Part shown: positions 35,758 through 41,198 of the stretch, piece by piece
Numbering within the stretch: the first letter of the stretch is position 1
Layout: each line of letters begins with the position of its first letter
Assembly (NCBI GenBank): GCA_019748195.1
Contig: JAIEPW010000089.1
Span: 1 to 61,645, forward strand
Source: Bryobacteraceae bacterium
Lineage (GTDB): Bacteria > Acidobacteriota > Terriglobia > Bryobacterales > Bryobacteraceae
Length of the DNA: 61,645 nt
Direction: 5' to 3'
Position numbers and translations under genes: made by a program
Notes under the pieces: model-generated
The model's input: only the letters and a program-made list of their open reading frames with translations
The model's database searches: none
Told to the model about the DNA's origin: nothing

Positions 35758-36723
35758 TTACTGCTGTTGCGGCTGCCCGGATTGGAGCGCCGGAGGCTGC
35801 GGCGGACCCGCCGCCGTTTCCGTCCAATGCTCCCGGCCCTCATCGTCGAGCACCGGGCGAACCAGGACATCCACCGAAAGACGCTGCCCGGCGTGGCCGC
35901 GGTATACGCCCCGGACCGGCGCGACATCGCCGTAGTCGCGGCCTAGCGCCAGCCGGACGTGCTGCGTCGATACCGGAGCCCCCAGCGTGGGATCGAGCGC
36001 CATCCAGCCCGCGCCCGCAACGTAAACCTCCACCCAGGCATGCGACGCCTGCCCGCCGATCACTTCTTCCATGGACCGCTCGGCGGCGTCCACGGCCCGC
36101 TTCGGCACCAGGTACCCCGATACGTAATACGCCGGAAACCCGCGCATCCGGAGAATCGCCAGCAGGATGTGCGCGAAGTCCTGGCAAACGCCGGCCCGGG
36201 TTTCCAGCGAATCCCCAATGGAGGAGTGAACATGCGTCGCGCCCTGCTCATAGCGAAATCGCCCGTGCACCAGTTCCGACGCCGCCCTGGCGAAGCCGGG
36301 CGCCATGCCGGAGCTCCGCTCCTCGGCCTCGCGCACGAACTCCCGCAGCGCGTCCGGATGCGGCACGTAGTTGGTGGCCGCCACCAGGTCGAAGTATTCC
36401 TCGCGAAGTTCCTCGCGCATGGCGTCGAACTCGGCCAGCGTCAATGTGTCCGGCGGCGCCGGCGGGGAGTCATGGATGAGAACGACGCTTTCCGCTTCCA
36501 CCTTCAGGTACCGGTGCTCGCCCAGGACGTTGAACTGGTGTACCAGGTTTTCGAACATGTCGCGATGGGCCACCGTGGGCGCCTGCGGCGTCGTCGTCAG
36601 GCGGAAGGAGATGCAGCTTTGGCGGTCGTCATGCCGCGGCCGCAGCCGGACCTCGTTGTAGCTCTCCGATACCGGGCCGTCGTAGTGAAACTCGGTCACG
36701 TGTACCAGGCGGTAGCGATTCAT
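35758..36723 (-). CDS. transglutaminase-like cysteine peptidase (COG1305 type)
   Basis: A 321-residue protein with a transglutaminase-like core. The catalytic triad is visible: Cys180 in TRAGVCQDFAHILLAILRMRG, His in SHAWVEVYVAGAGW and Asp in MALDPTLGAP. An N-terminal beta-rich Bact_transglu_N domain (YRLVHVTEFHYDGPVSES) is typical. The start at 36723 overlaps alpha-E by 4 nt. In known ATP-grasp cassettes this enzyme is a peptidase or amidase acting on peptide conjugates. It is cytoplasmic by sequence (no signal peptide). Confidence 0.87.
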   Translation of the reverse strand: MNRYRLVHVTEFHYDGPVSESYNEVRLRPRHDDRQSCISFRLTTTPQAPTVAHRDMFENLVHQFNVLGEHRYLKVEAESVVLIHDSPPAPPDTLTLAEFDAMREELREEYFDLVAATNYVPHPDALREFVREAEERSSGMAPGFARAASELVHGRFRYEQGATHVHSSIGDSLETRAGVCQDFAHILLAILRMRGFPAYYVSGYLVPKRAVDAAERSMEEVIGGQASHAWVEVYVAGAGWMALDPTLGAPVSTQHVRLALGRDYGDVAPVRGVYRGHAGQRLSVDVLVRPVLDDEGREHWTETAAGPPQPPALQSGQPQQQ

Positions 36724-37661
36724 CCCGCCACCCCGTAATGGAAGTATGTCCGCCCGATCTGCTCTCCGATCTCGCAGCAGGTCTTCTGCAGATCTGTCAG
36801 GTATTCGTGCAGCCCCAATCCGAAAACATCGGACATGCGGCCGTAGCGCAAGCTCTCCAGCAGCTTCCCCGTCAGGCGCTCGGCCTCGTTGGCGTAAGCG
36901 CCCACCCCCGTTCCGCTGATCGCCCGCAAGCCCCCTTGCAGTTCGGTCATGTTGAAACGGATGGATCGCGGATGGTCGGGATGCAGGATCAGCAGTTCCG
37001 CCACCGCCTGCGGTTCGATGCGGGAGCGGTGCAGGCGGCAATAGGCCTCGAATGCCCCTACCGATTTCAGCACCGCCATCCACTGATGATGATCGTCCGT
37101 ATCCACATCCGGGCGGTCCACCAGACGGTGGTACTGAACATCCACGATCCGCGCCGTCATTTCCGCGCGTTCCAGCGCCCAGCCGGTCCGCAGAAACTGC
37201 CAGGATTCGTCATGCGTCAGAGTCGCGTCCGTGACCCCGCGGAAGCGGTGACTTCCGAACTTCACGATGTTGCAGAAGCGGTGAACCTCCTCGTCCGCGC
37301 CGAAGCTCCTCACCTGGTGGTACAGCCCGTTGATGTCCTCCCACATCTCGCGCGAGATCCGTTCGCGGATCGTGCGCGCGTTCTCCCGCGCGCGCTCCAG
37401 GCACCTGGTGATCGAGTTCGGATTGTCCTCCCGCAGCGCGAGGAATTCGAACACCGTTTGCGCGTTGGCCTCCGCGTAAGCGCCCGAAAAGCGATCCTGT
37501 TCGCCCGCGATCGCCACCAGCGGCTCCCACCGCAGCCGGTAGGATTGCGGCGACTGGTCCAGGAACATGTGATAGTTGACGTCCAGAATGCGCGCGGTCT
37601 CTTCCGCCCGCTCCATGTAGCGGGCGATCCAGAACATGGAATCGGCGATGCGGGACAGCAT
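36720..37661 (-). CDS. alpha-E domain protein (COG2307)
   Basis: A 313-residue all-helical protein of the alpha-E family. It begins [29 protein letters not shown], the family's N-terminal signature, and includes NPNSITRCLERARENARTIRERIS. No enzymatic motif is known. The family is nearly always encoded with circularly permuted ATP-grasp and transglutaminase-like genes, as here. The start was set at 37661, where the ATG overlaps the preceding stop by one base (TAATG), instead of an upstream frame start. Confidence 0.87.
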   Translation of the reverse strand: MLSRIADSMFWIARYMERAEETARILDVNYHMFLDQSPQSYRLRWEPLVAIAGEQDRFSGAYAEANAQTVFEFLALREDNPNSITRCLERARENARTIRERISREMWEDINGLYHQVRSFGADEEVHRFCNIVKFGSHRFRGVTDATLTHDESWQFLRTGWALERAEMTARIVDVQYHRLVDRPDVDTDDHHQWMAVLKSVGAFEAYCRLHRSRIEPQAVAELLILHPDHPRSIRFNMTELQGGLRAISGTGVGAYANEAERLTGKLLESLRYGRMSDVFGLGLHEYLTDLQKTCCEIGEQIGRTYFHYGVAG

Positions 37662-39139
37662 TACGATTCTCCCCGCAACACCCACGTATCCTTGCTGCCG
37701 CCCCCCTGCGACGAGTTCACCACCAGGGAGCCCGCCTGCAGCGCCACCCGCGTCAACCCGCCCGGCGCCACCGTGACCTTGTGCCCGTCGAACAGGCAGT
37801 AAGGACGCAGGTCCACGTGCCGCCCGGCGAACCTCCCCGTCGCGGAATCGAACGCCGGCACTCGCGACAGCGCCACCACCGGCTGCGCGATCCAGTTTCT
37901 TGGGTCCGATTTCAGACGCTGCCGCAGGGATTCAATCGTCGCCCGGTCCGCCGACGGACCGATCACCATTCCGTAACCGCCGGATTCACCCACCGGCTTC
38001 ACCACCATCTCCTGCAGATGTTCCAGAACGTAGCGGCAGTCGGCCGGGCGGTCGCACACATACGTCTCCACATTCTTCAAAATCGGATCCTGGCCCAGAT
38101 AGTAGCGGATAAACTCCGGGACGAAGGCATAGACCGCCTTGTCGTCGGCGACCCCGTTGCCCACCGCGTTCGCGATCGCCACCTGGCCCAGGCGGAAGGC
38201 GGTCATCAGTCCGGGGACGCCGAGCTCGGAGTCCGGGCGGAAGGCGAGCGGATCCAGGAAGTCGTCGTCCACGCGGCGATAAATCACGTCGACGCGCTTC
38301 AAGCCGTGAATCGTCTTCATGAAGACGATGCCCGCGTCTGTCACCAGGTCGCGGCCTTCCACCAGTTCGATTCCCATCTGCTGCGCCAGGAAGGAGTGCT
38401 CGAAGTAAGCGCTGTTGTAGATGCCCGGCGTCAGCAGCACGACGACGGCGTCGCCGCCGCGGGGCGACAGGCTCCGCAAAATGCGGCCCAGATGCGAAGG
38501 GTAATCGTCCACCGGGAGAACGGCGTATTGTTGGAACGCCTGCGGCAAAGCCCGGATTGTCACCAGACGATTCTCCAGCACATAGGAAACACCGGACGGC
38601 GTGCGGACGTTATCCTCCAGAACCATGAACTCCCCCGTCCGCGAGTCCCGCACCAGGTCGATTCCGGAGATGTGCGTGTGGATGCTCCCCGGAACTTCCA
38701 GCCCCATCATCTCCCGCCGGAAATGACGGCAGGAGAAGACCAGCGAGCGCGGGACCTTTCGATCCTTCAGGATTTGCTGGCTCCCGTAAACGTCCTGCAG
38801 GAACAGGTTCAAGGCGATGACGCGCTGGCTCAGCCCCTTCTCGATCTGGTCCCATTCGGCGCGAGGCAGGATGCGCGGCAGCAGATCGAACGGGAATAAC
38901 CGTTCCGTGCCGCGGCCGTCGCTGTATACAGTGAACGTGATGCCCTGCACCAGGAACGACAGGTCCGCCACCTCGCGGCGTTCCTGGAATTCCGCCGGCC
39001 CCATATAGGAAAGCTGCCGGTACAGACGCTGGTAATGCGGGCGCGGCACGCCCGGCGATTCGAACATCTCGTCGTAGAATCCGCCGGTGTCATATCCCGA
39101 GAACAAAGCCGGCAGTTCGGACTCCGGTTTCGGGGTCAT
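37661..39139 (-). CDS. circularly permuted type 2 ATP-grasp protein (COG2308)
   Basis: A 492-residue amidoligase-like enzyme. It starts with [28 protein letters not shown], then has [34 protein letters not shown] and [19 protein letters not shown] (nucleotide-binding loop), typical of the circularly permuted ATP-grasp family predicted to make peptide or amide bonds. It heads the cassette ATP-grasp/alpha-E/transglutaminase. TATACT lies 8 nt before the ATG, so the operon has its own promoter despite following the UGSC gene by 79 nt. The product is unknown. Confidence 0.87.
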
Positions 39140-39218: not shown

Positions 39219-39752
39219 CTAGGAGGGTGTTCCGGTTAATCGCGCCGCGATTTCGGCCATCGCCTGGTCGGCCCGGTCTTCGATCTCAGTCGGGGTCTGA
39301 TCCTGAATGGGATGCGCCACGTAGATCGCATCGAAGTCCGGACGGCCCAGGTATGCTGCTTGCGCGCGTGCCGCGGTCATGAACTCATGCGTCGCCACCG
39401 GCACCGCGGGGATCCCCAACTTCTCCAACCTGGTCGTGTCGTGCAAACTGCACGTTGTGCAGGACCCTCAATCGGCCAGGCCTTCCACCACCGCGTCCGG
39501 CTTCCATTGCGTGATCTTGCCGATCACCGCCTCGGGAGCGGGCTTGGTGAAGGTCGGCTTGCGTTCGCGCAACACGTCGGCGACGCCGTAGGTCCGGCGA
39601 AGCAGCGCCTCCACGCGATCCAGGAATACGCTGCCGCCCGGCTTGGAGATATCCAGCAGCGCGATTCGCTTTCCGCTCAGCGTGGCCAGCCGCGGCGCGG
39701 GTTGCCCCGCCTCGCGTGAGGCTTCGTTCATCGGGTTGATCAGCGTGGTCAT
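39219..39752 (-). CDS. UGSC family selenoprotein (in-frame UGA read as Sec)
   Basis: A 177-residue protein when the in-frame TGA at 39468-39470 is read as selenocysteine (residue 95). The centre reads [17 protein letters not shown], exactly the UGSC motif that names this family. The frame continues without a break on both sides, with family-like sequence ([23 protein letters not shown] before; [24 protein letters not shown] after). A SECIS-like hairpin follows the UGA directly. Function is unknown; the U/CxxC-like centre suggests a redox or reductase role. It lies 12 nt after the beta-CASP nuclease gene on the same strand; GATATT at 39761-39766 might be its own -10. Confidence 0.87.
39429..39470 (-). 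promoter_or_regulatory. putative bacterial SECIS element in the UGSC gene
   Basis: Starting at the UGA, the minus strand can fold with an outer stem GGTC/GACC (2-5 and 33-36 nt after the UGA) and an apical stem CGTGCA/TGCACG (14-19 and 23-28) closed by a GTT loop. A G at the first loop base about 20 nt after the UGA is what bacterial SECIS elements show for SelB binding. The competing hairpin CTGCAC-AAC-GTGCAG also exists, so folding should be checked. Confidence 0.6.
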
Positions 39753-39764
39753 GCGGTCAAAATA

Positions 39765-41198
39765 TCACGCCGCGCGGCCCGGGGAAAGCTCGAACTCATC
39801 GCCTCGCGCGGGCTGGCTTGCCGGGATCCCATACCGCTCTTCAATCGCCCGAGCCAGCGCCGCGCCTTGCGTTTCTTCTCCGTGCACCAGAAACACGCGC
39901 CTCAACGACGTCGCCAGCGGTTTCATCCACTCCAGCAGTTCGTGCTGATCCGCGTGCCCGCTCAGTTCGTTCAGCTTCACCACCTCCGCCCGCAGCCGGT
40001 ACGGTTCGCCGAAAATCGGCACCTCCGGCAGCTTGTCCACCAGCTTGCGCCCCAGCGTGTGCTGAGCCTGGAATCCTGTGATCAGGACCGTGTTCCGCGG
40101 ATCCTCAACCGAGTTCTTCAAGTGATGCAGAATGCGTCCCGCCTCGCACATCCCGGACGCCGAGATCACCAGGTAAGGGCCGCGCAGGTCGTTCAGCGCC
40201 TTGGATTCGGCGGCGGTGCGGATGTAACGCAGGCGGTGGAAGCCGAACGGATCGTTGCCGTCCTCCAGGATGCTCCGCGTCTCGGCGTCGTAGCTGTCCT
40301 CGTGCCGCCGGAACACCTCCGTGACGTTCACCGCCAGCGGGCTGTCCACGAACATCGGAATTGAAGGTATGCGCTCTTCCCGCATCAACTGAGTCAGCAG
40401 CAACACCAGTTGCTGCGTGCGGCCCACCGCGAACGCGGGCACGACAATCCGCCCGCCGCGCGCGCACGTGCGGTTGATCGTGGCCTCCAGTTTCTGCTTC
40501 ACCGGGCCCAGATCCTGATGCAGGCGGTCGCCATAGGTGCTTTCCAGAATCAGGTAGTCCACCGGCGGCGTTGGCGGCTCCGGATCGCGGATGATCGGCA
40601 GTCCCTTTCGCCCGACATCGCCCGAAAACGCGACCCGGAGATCGTGGCCCGCCTCCCGCGCCTCGAGGATCAAGGCGGCCGAGCCGAGCATGTGCCCCGC
40701 GTCGATCATGCGATAGCGCAACCCGCCGCCCAGGTCCTGGATTTCGCCCAGCTTCACGGAACGAAATAGGGGGAACGTTCGCTCCGCGTCCGCCATCGTG
40801 TAGAGCGGCCGAATGTCGCCGTTGCCGCCGTCCATTCCGATGGCCCTGCGCCGCGCGAGCCGCTTGTTCAGAAACTCGGCGTCTTTCTCCTGCAGGTATG
40901 CGGAATCCGCCAGCATGGCCTCGCACAGGTCGATCGTGGGCGGAGTGGCGTAGATCGCGCCCGAGAATCCGTTCTTCACCAGATTCGGCAGGTTGCCCGA
41001 GTGGTCGATGTGCGCGTGCGAGAGCAGCACCGCCTCCACACTCGTCGCGGGAAAAGGAAACTCGCTGTTTCGCGCGAACGCTTCCTTGCGGCGTCCCTGG
41101 TACAGCCCGCAATCAAGAAGCAGCCTTCGCCCTTCGAACGACACCTCATGCATGGAGCCGGTTACGGTGCGCGCGGCCCCCCAGAATCGAAGCTTCAT
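39765..41198 (-). CDS. MBL-fold beta-CASP ribonuclease-like hydrolase
   Basis: A 477-residue metallo-beta-lactamase-fold protein with a beta-CASP insertion, like RNA-processing nucleases and YSH1-type proteins. Metal motif HAHIDHSG at about 60-67, DAGHMLGSA, SGDVGRKG, ESTYGDRLH and the C-terminal beta-CASP motifs (PAFAVGRTQ, ASGMCEAGRI, SGHADQHELLEW) are present. It is likely a cytoplasmic RNA 5'/endo-nuclease. The start is divergent from the DPP IV gene across only 20 nt, with TATAGT 12 nt before its ATG. Confidence 0.9.
   Translation of the reverse strand: MKLRFWGAARTVTGSMHEVSFEGRRLLLDCGLYQGRRKEAFARNSEFPFPATSVEAVLLSHAHIDHSGNLPNLVKNGFSGAIYATPPTIDLCEAMLADSAYLQEKDAEFLNKRLARRRAIGMDGGNGDIRPLYTMADAERTFPLFRSVKLGEIQDLGGGLRYRMIDAGHMLGSAALILEAREAGHDLRVAFSGDVGRKGLPIIRDPEPPTPPVDYLILESTYGDRLHQDLGPVKQKLEATINRTCARGGRIVVPAFAVGRTQQLVLLLTQLMREERIPSIPMFVDSPLAVNVTEVFRRHEDSYDAETRSILEDGNDPFGFHRLRYIRTAAESKALNDLRGPYLVISASGMCEAGRILHHLKNSVEDPRNTVLITGFQAQHTLGRKLVDKLPEVPIFGEPYRLRAEVVKLNELSGHADQHELLEWMKPLATSLRRVFLVHGEETQGAALARAIEERYGIPASQPARGDEFELSPGRAA

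Follow-up and report, generated by a model that had tools for sequence, protein, structure and literature searches.

The UGSC family and its closest described relatives

The closest described system to the locus reported here is the UGSC-containing selenoprotein family (Pfam PF24696, NCBIfam NF041046), a family already known and functionally uncharacterised, for which passages of two papers (PMC2398784, PMC13188914) propose a thioredoxin-like fold. A passage of the first also reports a fusion, in ocean metagenomes, of UGSC with a domain termed Unknown_1. The passages available to us from PMC2398784, PMC13188914, PMC9312934, PMC5330540 and PMC5029168 describe neither a constant partner of UGSC nor a relationship to GrdB; subscription journals lay mostly outside this search, and the partner may already have been published there.

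A second point of comparison is the selenol-bearing GrdB/PrdB group (PF07355) of glycine and proline reductases. Glycine reductase uses thioredoxin. UGSC and GrdB/PrdB have in common a U-x-x-C motif that follows a strand and a similarity of profile in the selenocysteine (Sec) region, and the thioredoxin system that lies near UGSC in some organisms adds to this likeness. UGSC differs in covering only the C-terminal Sec region of GrdB/PrdB, and in lacking a HMMER match to PF07355.

A new member of the family with an in-frame TGA

The window, by which we mean the whole stretch of DNA analysed, is an entire contig of 61,645 bases (C123) from a 5.83-Mb genome of 154 contigs that is 99.67% complete. 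The features at the centre of the analysis are as follows.

39219 to 39752, minus strand: gene for a UGSC family selenoprotein of 177 residues, Sec at position 95, closed by a stop codon (translation with TGA as U; PF24696, NF041046)
39468 to 39470, minus strand: in-frame TGA, the predicted Sec codon of residue 95 (TGA or a Cys codon at the aligned position in 34/36 and 16/16 loci)

Read through the TGA, the minus strand from 39752 to 39219 encodes 177 residues with a single in-frame TGA at 39470-39468. Standard reading gives two open reading frames instead, one of 94 residues (39752-39468) and one of 75 residues with a TTG start (39446-39219), in agreement with the sequence-only reading, which had expected the TGA, taken as a stop, to cut the protein at 94 residues and to split the gene in two. 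With Cys in place of Sec, the read-through protein matched PF24696 over residues 4-173 (6.1e-47; 160.4 bits, cut-off 25) and NF041046, the UGSC_fam model (147.4 bits, cut-off 125), so that its earlier assignment to the UGSC family, with an in-frame UGA, is borne out by two models above their cut-offs and by the 177-residue frame. The motif UGSC is present, and its first position exchanges Sec and Cys among relatives. In motif, length, Sec/Cys alternation and scores the window protein is like the described family; no difference lies within the protein, and only the placement of a partner gene on another contig sets this locus apart. Judged by these sequence features, the gene very probably adds one more member to a selenoprotein family already described, and is not a pseudogene.

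The split of such genes in annotation is a wider matter. The UGSC gene of Paracoccus ferrooxidans plasmid pFER4 (6977-7546 of the fetched locus, L142) is annotated as two hypothetical proteins, and the record still carries the gene in this form; pFER4 also has an annotated selB, some 4.4 kb downstream of the UGSC gene.

Selenocysteine and cysteine at residue 95

UGSC was found in 16 of 101 genomes, the window's own included, and 17 of the 18 matches contained exactly one TGA, the 18th both TGA and TAG. Scanning genome contigs gave 36 UGSC loci, which by their titles come mainly from Acidobacteriota, with three from Gemmatimonadetes, one from Sumerlaeota and one from Actinophytocola; DCGSC, one of the two scan patterns, corresponds to Cys codons on back-translation, and selection against Cys forms would not be expected. 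The aligned Sec position held TGA at 33 of these loci and TGC at one (Actinophytocola), and two (L082 and L084) could not be read in one frame, a separate alignment piece of L084 showing TGA. Plasmid records gave 19 matches, 16 of which were fetched (H8, H15 and H17 were left out), with Cys codons at 13 and TGA at three. TGA or Cys occupied the position in 49 of the 52 loci examined (36 genome and 16 plasmid). The alternation of Sec and Cys anticipated at residue 95 was therefore seen in the alignments; homologues that ended at the TGA would have meant a pseudogene, and the homologues run past that position.

Two departures from this pattern were observed outside these sets. One UGSC copy (L048, also fetched as L190, 2774-3271 on G075:C229) carries TAG where Sec aligns, preceded by a TGA three codons upstream; the contig is short and is possibly foreign to the genome. 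A passage of PMC5330540 reports UGSC proteins of Geodermatophilaceae in which UAG encodes Sec. In a UGSC-domain paralogue (L191 7341-7853, G211:C100) from the expanded set of another acidobacterial genus, described below, Ser replaces both Sec (codon TCG) and the second Cys of the motif, and by this sequence the protein probably has no redox centre. Among viral contigs, seven stretches matched a pattern and none encodes a relative.

Decoding machinery of the host genome

The sequence-only reading had placed the Sec machinery elsewhere in the genome, and genome-wide searches recovered all four components on other contigs, C146, C92 and C106. The tRNA-Sec on C146 scored 72.8 bits against an Rfam gathering score of 47 and was called as tRNA-SeC(tca) by ARAGORN, which found no tRNA in the window. 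On C146, at a distance of about 2 kb from the tRNA-Sec, lies SelB (361.3 bits, cut-off 242), with SelA on C92 (484.9 bits) and SelD on C106 (369 bits), and Pfam confirmed the SelA and SelB domains, including the winged helices of SelB. By these matches, the Sec machinery of the host genome is complete. Its SelD (L026 1501-2406, G000:C106) is likewise predicted to be a selenoprotein, as its frame contains one TGA in a context read as KAAG-U-ASK. The association of UGSC with selA across relatives was uninformative, a selA match occurring in 97 of 101 genomes (E <= 0.001; 89 over the cut-off), all 16 UGSC carriers included.

A conserved hairpin downstream of the TGA

Bacterial SECIS elements are hairpins required downstream of UGA, and the conservation observed at the following feature fits such behaviour.

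39440 to 39454, minus strand: SECIS-like hairpin CGTGCA-GTT-TGCACG, starting 13 nt after the TGA, with GU at the start of the loop

All six pairs and the GU of the loop were present at 52 of 53 TGA loci, equivalent to 31 of 32 distinct 36-nt stretches, several genomes having been fetched twice; this set excludes L082, where the alignment breaks across residue 95, L084, whose first piece lies in a different frame, and L048, which has TAG. In two distinct TGA sequences from plasmids the stem is preserved by an exchange of C-G for G-C, in two sequences one pair is maintained as G-U, and the loop varies at its third base. The one exception, L046, has no common hairpin and is predicted to form an alternative with a 4-nt loop read as GGUC. 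Among 14 Cys homologues, all six pairs were found in one and five pairs in four, and the GU loop in none.

The codons that form this region are nearly frozen. Across 34 distinct orthologue sequences, ACG at +5, TGC at +6, AGT at +7 and CAC at +9 are invariant, and TTG at +8 is replaced by CTG in one sequence and by a Met codon in another; several codons are in use at most other conserved residues, although Cys at +3 is TGC in 33 of 34. This set predates the plasmid loci and excludes L031 and L046 (both TGA) and L048, L083 and L084 (first aligned piece not TGA). In four window genes AGT makes up only 2 of 108 Ser codons and TTG 22 of 204 Leu codons, and TGC and CAC are common there; AGT is therefore the telling frozen codon. 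Together, the comparative sequence evidence strongly supports a reading in which the UGA at residue 95 is decoded as Sec by SelB and tRNA-Sec, directed by the downstream hairpin.

The same evidence bears on whether the TGA might be a real stop or a damaged codon, that is, a pseudogene or a sequencing error. Such an explanation would account for the truncation at 94 residues under standard gene calling, but it would have to coexist with a TGA at the same position in 33 of 36 separately assembled loci, a conserved hairpin, a complete Sec machinery and a family-like open frame after the TGA. We consider its probability negligible, and reject it on the grounds of conservation, hairpin and machinery.

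Neighbouring genes in the window

The genes on either side of the UGSC gene are those that had been named from the sequence, as confirmed by Pfam, with a beta-CASP metallo-beta-lactamase on one side and ATP-grasp, Alpha-E and transglutaminase proteins on the other.

39765 to 41198, minus strand: beta-CASP metallo-beta-lactamase, RNase-like, a neighbour only and outside the module (PF10996, 2.5e-39)
37661 to 39139, minus strand: circularly permuted ATP-grasp protein, a neighbour only and outside the module (PF14403, 3.3e-162)
36720 to 37685: Alpha-E protein, after the ATP-grasp gene (PF04168, 4.9e-100)
35758 to 37083: open reading frame containing a transglutaminase-like protein (PF01841, 3.8e-19)

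The possibility that UGSC works with the beta-CASP RNase-like protein, or with the ATP-grasp/Alpha-E/transglutaminase cassette, draws on their shared strand and on the short gap, 12 nt, that separates the RNase gene from the start of UGSC. However, rough clustering of open reading frames over up to 6 kb on each side (less at contig ends) found none of these four genes near UGSC at any of 33 related loci. Because they are not conserved beside UGSC, the window neighbours provide no clue to its role; the earlier suggestion that the RNase and ATP-grasp cassette might do so was not upheld, and a functional link of this kind now seems very improbable. We therefore rejected the assignment of function from window neighbours.

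The beta-CASP protein itself scored 360 bits against the NCBIfam model of type VII CRISPR Cas14 (cut-off 800) and 260 bits against that of archaeal aCPSF1 (cut-off 580), and is likelier an ordinary beta-CASP nuclease than either of these.

A near-constant partner protein

Our analysis of related loci revealed a different recurrent neighbour, a protein of about 530 residues. At 31 of 33 loci, as seen by a rough gene caller, its gene is the one directly upstream of UGSC and has the same orientation. By tblastn, its C-terminal domain is present at 35 of the 36 genome loci, the exception being L084, where the match starts at the contig end. The N-terminus of the copy in L054 is a redoxin domain (AhpC/TSA, 1.3e-19) with the motif CPTC; a redoxin match was obtained for the partner at 33 of 36 genome loci and for the copy in the window's own genome, with CPTC, CPAC or CPSC in every match but one that is truncated. 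The remaining 350 or so residues matched no Pfam or NCBIfam family over its cut-off. The own-genome copy, on contig C151, is 60% identical, has its redoxin domain, and is unlinked to UGSC. In one copy (L066 4933-5970) the partner domain contains a single in-frame stop.

Co-occurrence of the two proteins was close. Among the 101 genomes searched, the partner domain occurred in 16, exactly the 16 UGSC carriers, with matching copy numbers (two of each in G075 and G097), and UGSC and partner were adjacent in 17 of 18 pairs, the exception being the window's genome. Across 396 genomes of the phylum, 41 had UGSC and 40 the partner: 39 had both, two UGSC only, one the partner only and 354 neither, so that both proteins were present in 39 of the 42 carriers of either. 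This survey scored up to eight UGSC and up to five partner candidates per genome. Fisher's test gave 2e-50, a value uncorrected for relatedness; by genus, carriers were 18 of 211 for each protein. The UGSC-only genomes (G232 and G249) have weak matches without TGA, and the partner-only genome (G219) a 57-position match at a contig end. Copy numbers were mismatched in G282, with two UGSC matches (one partial) and one partner, and in G439, with one UGSC and two partners. Since non-adjacent pairs also occur in some other genomes (for example, G187), the unlinked arrangement in the window's genome is not unique.

This linkage extends beyond the phylum. At all 16 plasmid loci, from haloarchaea, actinobacteria and proteobacteria, the partner domain lies beside UGSC on the same strand, with UGSC proteins that are 26-38% identical to the window protein. 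At five of these loci (L143, L146, L148, L152 and L153), UGSC and partner domain share one frame with no stop between them, the fusion in L153 covering the first part of the partner only, after which the partner shifts frame. Fused frames without an intervening stop can also be read in one acidobacterial genus. The fusion of UGSC to an unnamed conserved domain is a likeness to the UGSC/Unknown_1 fusion in the passage of PMC2398784, and Unknown_1, judged by this architecture, may be the same domain as our partner domain.

The genus with fused frames (g126) was also unusual in copy number. Ten of its genomes (G135, G183, G211, G220, G278, G293, G347, G355, G371 and G403) have at least eight UGSC matches each, out of 16-46 UGSC candidates per genome; most of the listed matches have one TGA and several have none. 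Frames in four of the six loci fetched (L191, L192, L193 and L195 of L191-L196) join UGSC and partner domain, and those in L192, L193 and L195 seem, by eye, to start with a signal-peptide-like stretch.

Thioredoxin genes and metabolic context on plasmids

On an Arthrobacter plasmid the gene order is trxB, trxA, partner, UGSC, with both the thioredoxin reductase and the thioredoxin above NCBIfam cut-offs; trxB follows the pair in Roseovarius and precedes it in Variovorax SRS16. A thioredoxin reductase over the cut-off lies near the pair at three of 12 annotated plasmid loci and a TrxB-like protein under the cut-off at two more; the remaining seven have no gene annotated as TrxB, in gene tables that are incomplete. 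The proteins scanned were five neighbouring flavoprotein reductases, one thioredoxin and one hypothetical protein. Other annotations that recur on the plasmids are CoA transferases, parts of TRAP and tripartite tricarboxylate transporters, and isocitrate lyase/PEP mutase family proteins, and these neighbours are only a hint of catabolism of an imported small organic acid.

Predicted fold and probable kinship with GrdB

The thioredoxin fold has the order beta-alpha-beta-alpha-beta-beta-alpha. The AlphaFold2 model of UGSC, computed with Cys for Sec from 17 sequences (pLDDT 89.7, pTM 0.86), consists of five alternating beta-alpha units, with residue 95 between the strand at 87-93 and the helix at 96-111. 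As modelled, this layout would be Rossmann-like, unlike the published thioredoxin-fold guess. Two structure comparisons returned only generic beta-alpha relatives, with no thioredoxin among the best 50 rows of each. A sequence search of solved structures gave no dependable match for UGSC, GRDB or the partner. The partner domain was modelled with similar quality (pLDDT 91.2) and had no clear match among solved structures (best Z 4.9; best Foldseek E 7.2e-3); fumarate hydratase and cyclic amide hydrolases were among the weak rows. The partner alignment comprised 32 rows from 39 stretches, leaving out L057, L066 (stop in frame), L072, L073, L075, L077, L078 and L082 and adding a second copy from L083.

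These models bear on a reading in which UGSC is a real selenoprotein that acts alone, as a thiol/selenol oxidoreductase of thioredoxin fold, and the partner merely co-travels. The UxxC motif would suit such an enzyme, and a passage of PMC13188914 names UGSC in a sentence on proteins of thioredoxin-like fold. The five beta-alpha units of the model and the lack of a thioredoxin among the best 50 rows of both comparisons point the other way, as does the partner, whose occurrence closely follows that of UGSC and which is fused to it at some loci. We regard a stand-alone oxidoreductase as unlikely, though as the most plausible of the alternatives considered.

Profile comparison instead related UGSC to GRDB (E 4.4e-7), with Sec aligned on Sec and the UxxC of both in register. 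A wider UGSC alignment scored 56.2 against GRDB, again with Sec on Sec, compared with 28.3 or less for 200 column-shuffled controls, and a narrower one scored 46.0 (E 6.1e-6) by the same procedure. The UGSC alignment left out L034, the window itself, and L048, and the GRDB alignment used 17 of 30 loci fetched from acidobacterial genomes and extended past the Pfam match, since matches to the PF07355 model end before the Sec motif. HMMER found no PF07355 match for the window protein (E <= 0.001) or for 17 UGSC members (E <= 10, filters on), nor is there a PF07355 match in the host genome, and the partner domain shows no similarity to GrdB. UGSC therefore looks like a distant relative of the Sec region of GrdB, a resemblance that comes from one profile method over about 70 columns and on which we do not file it as a member.

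Most GRDB matches in the phylum (L085-L114) are confined to the C-terminal part of the model. The 17 loci extended past it include 14 with an in-frame TGA, as UxxC in 12 and UxxxC in two. The full-length acidobacterial GrdB in L085 shares with UGSC a third Cys (UATCSRC), GIP and an HP motif.

A proposed two-subunit selenoenzyme

The explanation that best combines these results is that UGSC is a genuine selenoprotein, the selenol subunit of a two-subunit enzyme with a redoxin-fused partner and a GrdB/PrdB-like chemistry, to which we assign a probability of roughly 0.6. In this enzyme, the selenol-bearing UGSC would be joined by a partner composed of an N-terminal CPTC redoxin and the domain of about 350 residues. 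By analogy with GrdB and PrdB, the partner domain would hold a small-molecule substrate for attack by Sec95, the intermediate would be resolved by Cys98, and electrons would be supplied again by the fused redoxin domain or, in some other organisms, by TrxA/TrxB. The substrate-holding role of the partner domain is a guess, as the partner resembles no part of GrdB and no clear solved fold. Co-occurrence, adjacency and fusions of UGSC and partner are observed, and from them we infer that the two may form one physical complex. The most likely role for UGSC would then be that of the selenol subunit of a thioredoxin-fed reductase.

Counted against this explanation are the unlinked pair in the window's own genome, the copy-number mismatches in G282 and G439, the Ser paralogue and the sparse linkage to trxB; our confidence was lowered slightly because of the Ser paralogue and the copy-number mismatches. 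A broader and more tentative proposal, which we hold to be slightly less probable than even, is that UGSC and its partner constitute an undescribed Sec-dependent reductase system of bacteria and haloarchaea, a distant cousin of glycine and proline reductase that draws on its fused redoxin or on TrxA/TrxB. In one acidobacterial genus this system would have expanded to many fused and perhaps exported paralogues per genome, which may differ in substrate.

Beyond what the sequence-only reading held, the present analysis adds the near-constant partner, the probable fold and kinship of UGSC, and the reason why its neighbours in the window mislead. The evidence from partner and fold weighs against labelling UGSC a thioredoxin-fold protein and points to a chemistry like that of glycine reductase, and a near-constant, sometimes fused partner with a redox domain offers a concrete route to the function of the UGSC family.
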